From Candidatus Poribacteria bacterium (GTDB lineage Bacteria; Poribacteria; WGA-4E; WGA-3G): DNA of 64,000 nt. The DNA lies in NCBI GenBank assembly GCA_022827625.1, contig JAJEIE010000001.1:1-64000 (forward strand). The letters run 5' to 3'. Below the pieces are notes generated by a model that was not told where the DNA came from, made no database searches, and was given only the letters and a program-made list of their open reading frames with translations. This document shows, in pieces, positions 39,128 through 40,024 of this stretch. The translations under genes were made by a program, and so were the position numbers. Every line of letters begins with the position of its first letter. Positions within the stretch are counted from its first letter, which is position 1.

Positions 39128-39667
39128 TTACGATTCACCGTTCTTTGTCAATCGCTCAACGATTTCTTCAACGGCACCCTCTGCGCGCTCCCGAATCTGA
39201 TTTGGGGTCAAACTCTGGATCGGGTGTGGCACAGTGAGGGGTTCCAAGTCGCTATGACCGAGCACACGCGCCTGTACCTTGCCTGCAGCGAAAAAGACTT
39301 CTGTACAGACAGCGACACTGGGTACACCGCGCTCCTCTAAGGCACTTCCGTCGTGCATACTGCACGATATGCAAGAACCTCAGTCGGCAAGTCCTTCGAT
39401 AACGAAGTCGGCTTGCTCGGCGAGTTCGGCGAGCAATTCCGTCGGTGCCGGACGCGTGAACGTCGGTTTTTCGACGTGAATCACTTCGGCAAGATCAAAC
39501 CGTTCTTGCATTAATTCAGCAATACGATCCAGAAAAATATCGCTACCGTTCTTCGTGATGTTCAGCAGCCCCATCACTTTGCCATCGAGGCTATCGAGCC
39601 GGGGGGCGAGAAATTTCGCTGGCGCATCACCTTGAGAAGTCGGATCAAGTAAAATGGTGTTCGACAT
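39128..39667 (-). CDS. UGSC-family selenoprotein (TGA read as selenocysteine)
   Basis: Reading from ATG 39667 meets an in-frame TGA at 39380-39382 and then continues to TAA at 39128, giving 179 residues with Sec at 96. Around the TGA the protein reads FVIEGLAD-U-GSCISCSMHDG, the U-G-S-C motif of a known seleno-protein family. The residues after it (RGVPSVAVCTEVF) continue the same fold, so the two halves are one gene. A perfect stem TCGTGCA-GTA-TGCACGA begins 12 bases after the TGA (39351-39367), as a bacterial SECIS does. The active site may be redox (U-x-x-C). It follows a TPR gene by 24 bases. Ordinary gene callers split it in two. Confidence 0.9.
39351..39367 (-). promoter_or_regulatory. 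Candidate SECIS element
   Basis: Read on the minus strand, a perfect 7-bp stem with GU in a three-base loop starts 12 bases after the TGA. The E. coli fdhF SECIS upper stem starts 11 bases after its UGA, is also 17 bases long and shows GU in the loop. Confidence 0.7.
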
Positions 39668-39691: not shown

Positions 39692-40024
39692 TTATGTAGA
39701 TGAATTGGATGCTTCCATCTGCAACTGCTGCGACTTTGCCATCGCATCTTCTGCTTCTTGGATCATTCCCTTTCGTTGGTAACACACAGATAAACTGGTA
39801 TACGCGAGCGGATCCTTGGGGTTAATTTCTATCGCTTTCTGGACAGCTGCAATGGCTTCATCGTAGAGACTGAGCCGTTCATAAGCGTGTCCCAGCCCAA
39901 GGTGTCCCTCAATATAATCAGGATAAATATCGGTTAATTCTTTGAAAGCGTTGACAGCCGCTTCAAGGTCGTTCTCTGCAAAGTGCGTGAGCGCGGTGTC
40001 ATAGAGTTCTGCTTCGGTTGGCAT
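39692..40024 (-). CDS. TPR protein
   Basis: 110 residues made almost wholly of three tetratricopeptide repeats: AELYDTALTHFAENDLEAAV, YIEGHLGLGHAYERLSLYDE and PLAYTSLSVCYQRKGMIQEA, each with the W/L-G-Y-A-P spacing of the family. TPRs mediate protein-protein contacts. AAAGGA precedes the ATG. It lies 24 bases upstream of the UGSC selenoprotein and is probably in one transcript with it, so it may be its partner. That link is an inference from position. Confidence 0.88.
   Translation of the reverse strand: MPTEAELYDTALTHFAENDLEAAVNAFKELTDIYPDYIEGHLGLGHAYERLSLYDEAIAAVQKAIEINPKDPLAYTSLSVCYQRKGMIQEAEDAMAKSQQLQMEASNSST

Follow-up and report, generated by a model that had tools for sequence, protein, structure and literature searches.

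The locus raises the question of whether two short open reading frames on the minus strand of the window (the whole stretch of 64,000 nucleotides that was analysed) are in fact one selenoprotein gene, in which an in-frame UGA is read as selenocysteine (Sec), and if so, with which other protein its product works. A sequence-only reading of this DNA had claimed that both sides of the TGA encode one conserved protein, which normal gene calling breaks up, and that the residues around it form U-G-S-C. The coordinates and the motif turned out to be correct, and the strand, absent from that reading, is added here (Table 1). The frame runs from 39667 to 39128, with the stop codon TAA at 39130-39128; codon 96 appears as TCA on the plus strand, i.e. 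UGA at 39382-39380, and under the standard code the locus falls apart into frames of 95 and 76 amino acids. In the window protein the residues around Sec read EGLAD-U-GSC-ISC-SMHD, and the motif U96-G97-S98-C99 is nearly invariant among relatives. The Pfam family UGSC (PF24696) covers residues 6-174 with 172.3 bits (curated cut-off 25), and NF041046 matches with 158.5 bits (equivalog cut-off 125). Since a single curated domain spans both sides of the UGA, both halves are one domain. Homologues on plasmids are misannotated likewise, as one truncated coding sequence in Acidovorax and as two coding sequences in Paracoccus. Judged by its sequence, the locus is a genuine UGSC selenoprotein gene that is split by ordinary annotation.

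Table 1. Coordinates of the described features in the window.
Feature	Position	Strand	Remarks
UGSC-family selenoprotein gene	39128..39667	-	179 codons + TAA; one in-frame UGA = residue 96; PF24696 and NF041046 matches
Sec UGA codon	39380..39382	-	first position of U-G-S-C; TGA in 61/61 distinct homologous loci covering the position
Bacterial SECIS-type hairpin	39351..39367	-	7-bp stem, GUA loop, 12 nt after UGA
110-aa TPR protein gene	39692..40024	-	24 bp upstream of UGSC; TPR families in Pfam

The UGSC-containing protein was described in 2008 by Zhang and Gladyshev (PMC2398784) and corresponds to PF24696 and NF041046. The family is already known from ocean metagenomes, and a 2026 review still includes it among proteins of which most are functionally uncharacterised; the reviews searched for Poribacteria make no mention of this group. 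By its domain matches the window gene is a new member of this published family, with which it also shares the U-G-S-C motif and a SECIS right behind the UGA; it is ordinary within the family, and an example of a selenoprotein broken in two by annotation.

The criterion for a bacterial SECIS element is a hairpin right after the UGA, with a small apical loop that contains a G (PMC1088965). The hairpin, which the sequence-only reading had described as a perfect 7-bp stem with a GUA loop, 12 bases after the TGA, was measured exactly as such: its letters are UCGUGCA-GUA-UGCACGA (39367-39351), and among the homologues the loop is GUA or GUG and one stem pair shows compensation. Folding of the 50 nt from the UGA onwards yields -19.9 kcal/mol (z = -3.6; one of 200 shuffles as good), and synonymous resampling of the single sequence gives a stem of at least 7 bp in 4.7% of cases. 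Taken as a single sequence, the hairpin is only moderately unusual, and because this significance is too weak, conservation tests were used instead. The 64,000-nt window was scanned blind for an in-frame TGA with open arms of 40 codons or more on either side, together with a stem of 6 bp or more and a G in the loop, and three places pass. The UGSC locus is clearly the best of these, having the only 7-bp stem, and arms of 98 and 83 codons versus 40-56 elsewhere.

Homologous loci were collected with tblastn (E 1e-4), which resulted in 62 distinct loci, 61 of them covering the Sec position. All 61 have TGA there, with protein identities of 28% to 97% between the other loci and the window protein. 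An unchanged copy of the 17-nt hairpin is present in 52 of these loci, whereas six differ at one position and three depart further. The hairpin of the most distant locus, L101, is a different one. Among the 82 degenerate codons whose amino acid is at least 95% conserved, usage of a single codon is observed only at D95, which directly precedes the UGA, and at S101 and S103, which sit inside the hairpin. Codons 101-105, i.e. the stem-loop, have the highest synonymous conservation of any five-codon window in the gene; synonymous sites vary freely in the codons before the hairpin, but not within it. In an alignment that also includes two proteobacterial plasmid genes, 99.7% of the stem cells are paired and the covariation score is reached by no shuffle. 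Stem pair 21-27 is CG in 42 sequences, GC in two (Proteobacteria) and UA in one, and most other pairs are invariant. On the covariation score alone, a control structure slid by +3 scores higher than the real stem (0.069 vs. 0.043), but only 56% of its cells are paired. The covariation support for the hairpin is real but thin (one pair, three changed sequences), and the frozen synonymous sites carry more weight. No match to UGSC was found in phage records.

The sequence-only reading took the locus as a sign that the organism decodes UGA as selenocysteine, and proposed a search for selA, selB, selD and the Sec tRNA. In the genome of the sponge-associated Poribacterium to which the window belongs (5.0 Mb, 95% complete), all four are present: selA with 595 bits (cut-off 268), selB with 348 bits (cut-off 242), the tRNA-Sec with 78 bits (cut-off 47), anticodon UCA and a location approximately 160 bases from selB, and selD with 362 bits. 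This selD gene has an in-frame UGA of its own (L020, contig C40:54720-55643), and probably encodes a Sec-containing selenophosphate synthetase. The complete machinery and the conserved UGA together support the decoding of UGA as selenocysteine; in sponge symbionts, selA and selB have already been reported to be common (PMC5649159). That the UGA is a real stop in a decaying or split gene, as the two separate frames of the standard code would have it, is hardly credible, as the UGA is identical in all distinct loci that cover it, both halves are conserved, the synonymous sites are frozen and the Sec machinery is present. Sec insertion by means of SelB and a hairpin is the standard mechanism in bacteria. 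Here, SelB with Sec-tRNA(UCA) would bind the hairpin 3' of the UGA, so that Sec would be inserted at residue 96.

With respect to a functional partner, the sequence-only reading had pointed to the TPR gene. Within the family of the organism (f1), all 50 distinct loci have this gene directly upstream of UGSC, even where the other neighbours differ. However, it was not found there in any of the 12 loci outside this family, and none is annotated beside the plasmid homologues of UGSC. The constant position upstream therefore stands within one family, whereas a role as partner is only weakly supported; by gene order, its place beside UGSC is constant, but local and lineage-specific. As TPR proteins are moreover common and generic, it seems quite improbable that the TPR protein is the functional partner of a genuine UGSC selenoprotein.

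A different candidate emerges from co-occurrence. This partner is an uncharacterised protein of about 320 amino acids, which in its stand-alone form has no Pfam or NCBIfam match. In 85 Poribacterota genomes, UGSC and the partner are both present in 61 and both missing in 20, with each found alone in two; the association is strong (Fisher p = 4e-15; p = 3e-8 within the order), although these values are calculated as if the genomes were independent, whereas related genomes are not. The four genomes with only one of the two speak against full pairing. In the same genomes, UGSC is associated neither with SelA (p = 0.6) nor with a PrdB-like protein (p = 0.17), and for this reason incomplete assemblies are not the cause of the pattern. 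In the window's genome the partner lies on contig C26 (105210-106010), unlinked to UGSC, and the two genes are unlinked throughout families f1-f3 of the phylum. In two Poribacteria of family f4 (L100 and L102) the start of UGSC overlaps the end of the partner gene, which encodes a thioredoxin-like domain and a domain of about 350 amino acids without Pfam or NCBIfam match. A third lineage (L101) has UGSC and the partner domain joined in one fusion protein.

Linkage is the rule on plasmids. In each of the 20 listed records with UGSC (out of 21), which span haloarchaea, Proteobacteria and Actinomycetota and include fusions, the partner either shares the frame of UGSC or lies at most 245 bp away on the same strand; the 21st record is most likely Variovorax SRS16, in which the two genes are adjacent. 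Three plasmid records (Sporomusa, Vibrio and Haladaptatus) apparently have the partner only. The Sporomusa record turns out to be a fusion whose UGSC domain scores just above the Pfam cut-off, and Vibrio has one that scores just below it, which leaves only the Haladaptatus plasmid with a partner but no UGSC. For the window's genome, where the genes are unlinked, a complex of UGSC and partner is thus suggested by co-occurrence and by the arrangements in other lineages. A fusion of UGSC to a domain called 'Unknown_1', possibly the partner, was reported in 2008 (PMC2398784). Compared with the literature consulted, the association appears new, and it is much wider than the published fusion.

The alternative that UGSC is a genuine, but stand-alone redox protein, with the partner acting in the same pathway and not in the same enzyme, agrees with the unlinked genes in families f1-f3, and with the description of the UGSC family as a probable thiol oxidoreductase (PMC2398784). 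It is nevertheless rather unlikely, as UGSC and partner are fused in several unrelated lineages and adjacent in every listed plasmid record, which usually marks a single functional unit.

The predicted structure bears on the type of protein. A thioredoxin fold was proposed for UGSC in 2008 (PMC2398784), and thioredoxin-fold selenoproteins share with it a U-x-x-C motif at the start of a helix. However, the AlphaFold2 model (pLDDT 91, pTM 0.86) shows the order b-a-b-a-b-[U96]-a-b-a-b-a, which would make the 179-aa protein a three-layer alpha/beta structure of the five-strand Rossmann/flavodoxin type, with Sec predicted where the third strand ends and the following helix begins. Among the matches listed, the model comes closest to lumazine synthase, receiver and periplasmic-binding-protein folds, with a best Z of 10.9 to a designed protein and of 9-10 to natural ones; no thioredoxin-fold chain is among them. 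The predicted model thus makes a thioredoxin fold less likely than a Rossmann/flavodoxin-like one. Sequence searches of the solved structures gave nothing credible, whether started from the single UGSC protein or from the profiles built for UGSC, the partner and the PrdB-like protein. The haloarchaeal and several other UGSC homologues have Cys in place of Sec. The partner contains one nearly invariant Cys, C87, and its structure model is of moderate quality (pLDDT 80). A class I fumarate hydratase fold, found by Foldseek with E 8e-4, was rejected as unreliable (TM about 0.27, rmsd 16), and VIA-align yielded no trustworthy fold match for the partner either, with a best Z of 6.7 that covers only part of the model.

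The reading that I favour, and consider somewhat better than an even bet, is that the window gene encodes a selenoprotein which, together with the partner on contig C26, makes up a two-component enzyme recharged by thioredoxin, and serves as its selenol/thiol subunit. UGSC would contribute the selenol/thiol, and the partner of about 320 amino acids would be the second component, presumably in a physical complex. The two-component idea follows from the Sec/Cys pair at the start of a helix, the constant partner with its C87 and the nearby thioredoxin genes. The thioredoxin system probably restores the Sec-Cys pair to its reduced state after each turnover, because trxA and trxB, or trxB, adjoin UGSC in Arthrobacter, Roseovarius and Variovorax, and because the partner of family f4 carries a fused thioredoxin-like domain. 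A small organic acid or a CoA-linked metabolite is the probable substrate, as the neighbours of UGSC on plasmids encode CoA transferase, CoA ester lyase, an isocitrate lyase/PEP mutase family protein and TRAP/TTT binding proteins. Some members of the family may work without the U/C pair, given the Cys forms and a motif M-G-T-S in Sporomusa.

The proposed enzyme resembles glycine reductase and D-proline reductase, of which the subunits GrdB and PrdB (PF07355, TIGR01917, TIGR04483) likewise combine a U-x-x-C motif behind a strand with a second subunit and, as proposed for UGSC, thiol-driven recharging. Profile comparison shows a weak similarity that is in register at Sec, but not significant and far below the cut-offs (E 0.001-0.04, with a hhalign probability of 1-2%). 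However, UGSC is much shorter than GrdB, and the window protein reaches 15.9 bits against the 602 of TIGR01917, with no match to PF07355 or PrdB. A comparison of the UGSC profile with the PrdB-like protein was Sec-aligned, but not significant, even when the plasmid homologues were added, and a search of the PDB found no solved relative of GrdB/PrdB for a comparison of folds. The likeness is to be read as an analogy and does not place UGSC in their family. As a wider and more tentative proposal, which I regard as somewhat more doubtful than not, UGSC and the partner could be the halves of an undescribed selenium- or thiol-dependent enzyme class in Poribacterota, haloarchaea, Proteobacteria and Actinomycetota, similar to glycine and proline reductase, with CoA-linked or organic-acid substrates, and with a partner that is itself a selenoprotein in at least one lineage.

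What makes the locus interesting is above all the partner, with which an orphan selenoprotein becomes one half of a testable pair. With the partner, a confident predicted fold, and thioredoxin and CoA-pathway neighbours in cultivable bacteria and haloarchaea, the function can be tested directly.

Several forms of the two proteins deserve separate mention. In L102 (G026:C402), the partner is encoded upstream of UGSC on the minus strand, and its gene has an in-frame UGA in FKPG-U-GSLT with a hairpin after it, where the partner of L100 has Cys (RPGCGSKS). The L102 partner may thus itself be a selenoprotein, although this concerns one genome and a sequencing error is possible. On two haloarchaeal plasmids (L168 and L176), a Cys-form UGSC lies between two copies of the partner gene. 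On the plasmid of Acidovorax sp. T1 (L169:4001-6496), the UGSC coding sequence is annotated as ending at the UGA and the partner frame is unannotated; the latter is open over 714 amino acids, longer than the partner alone. The Sporomusa termitida plasmid encodes the UGSC-partner fusion with M-G-T-S (L192:5320-7044) near genes for aconitase X and DUF126, possibly a form without redox pair. Finally, the PrdB-like protein of the window's genome is a selenoprotein candidate in its own right (L099:1219-1968, minus strand; contig C16 around 83563-83790), with an in-frame UGA in TPV-U-PMCNQS, its own GUN-loop hairpin and a TIGR04483 score of 155 bits, which is below the cut-off. Of the 31 PF07355 loci fetched from the phylum, 29 yielded the UGA form of this protein.
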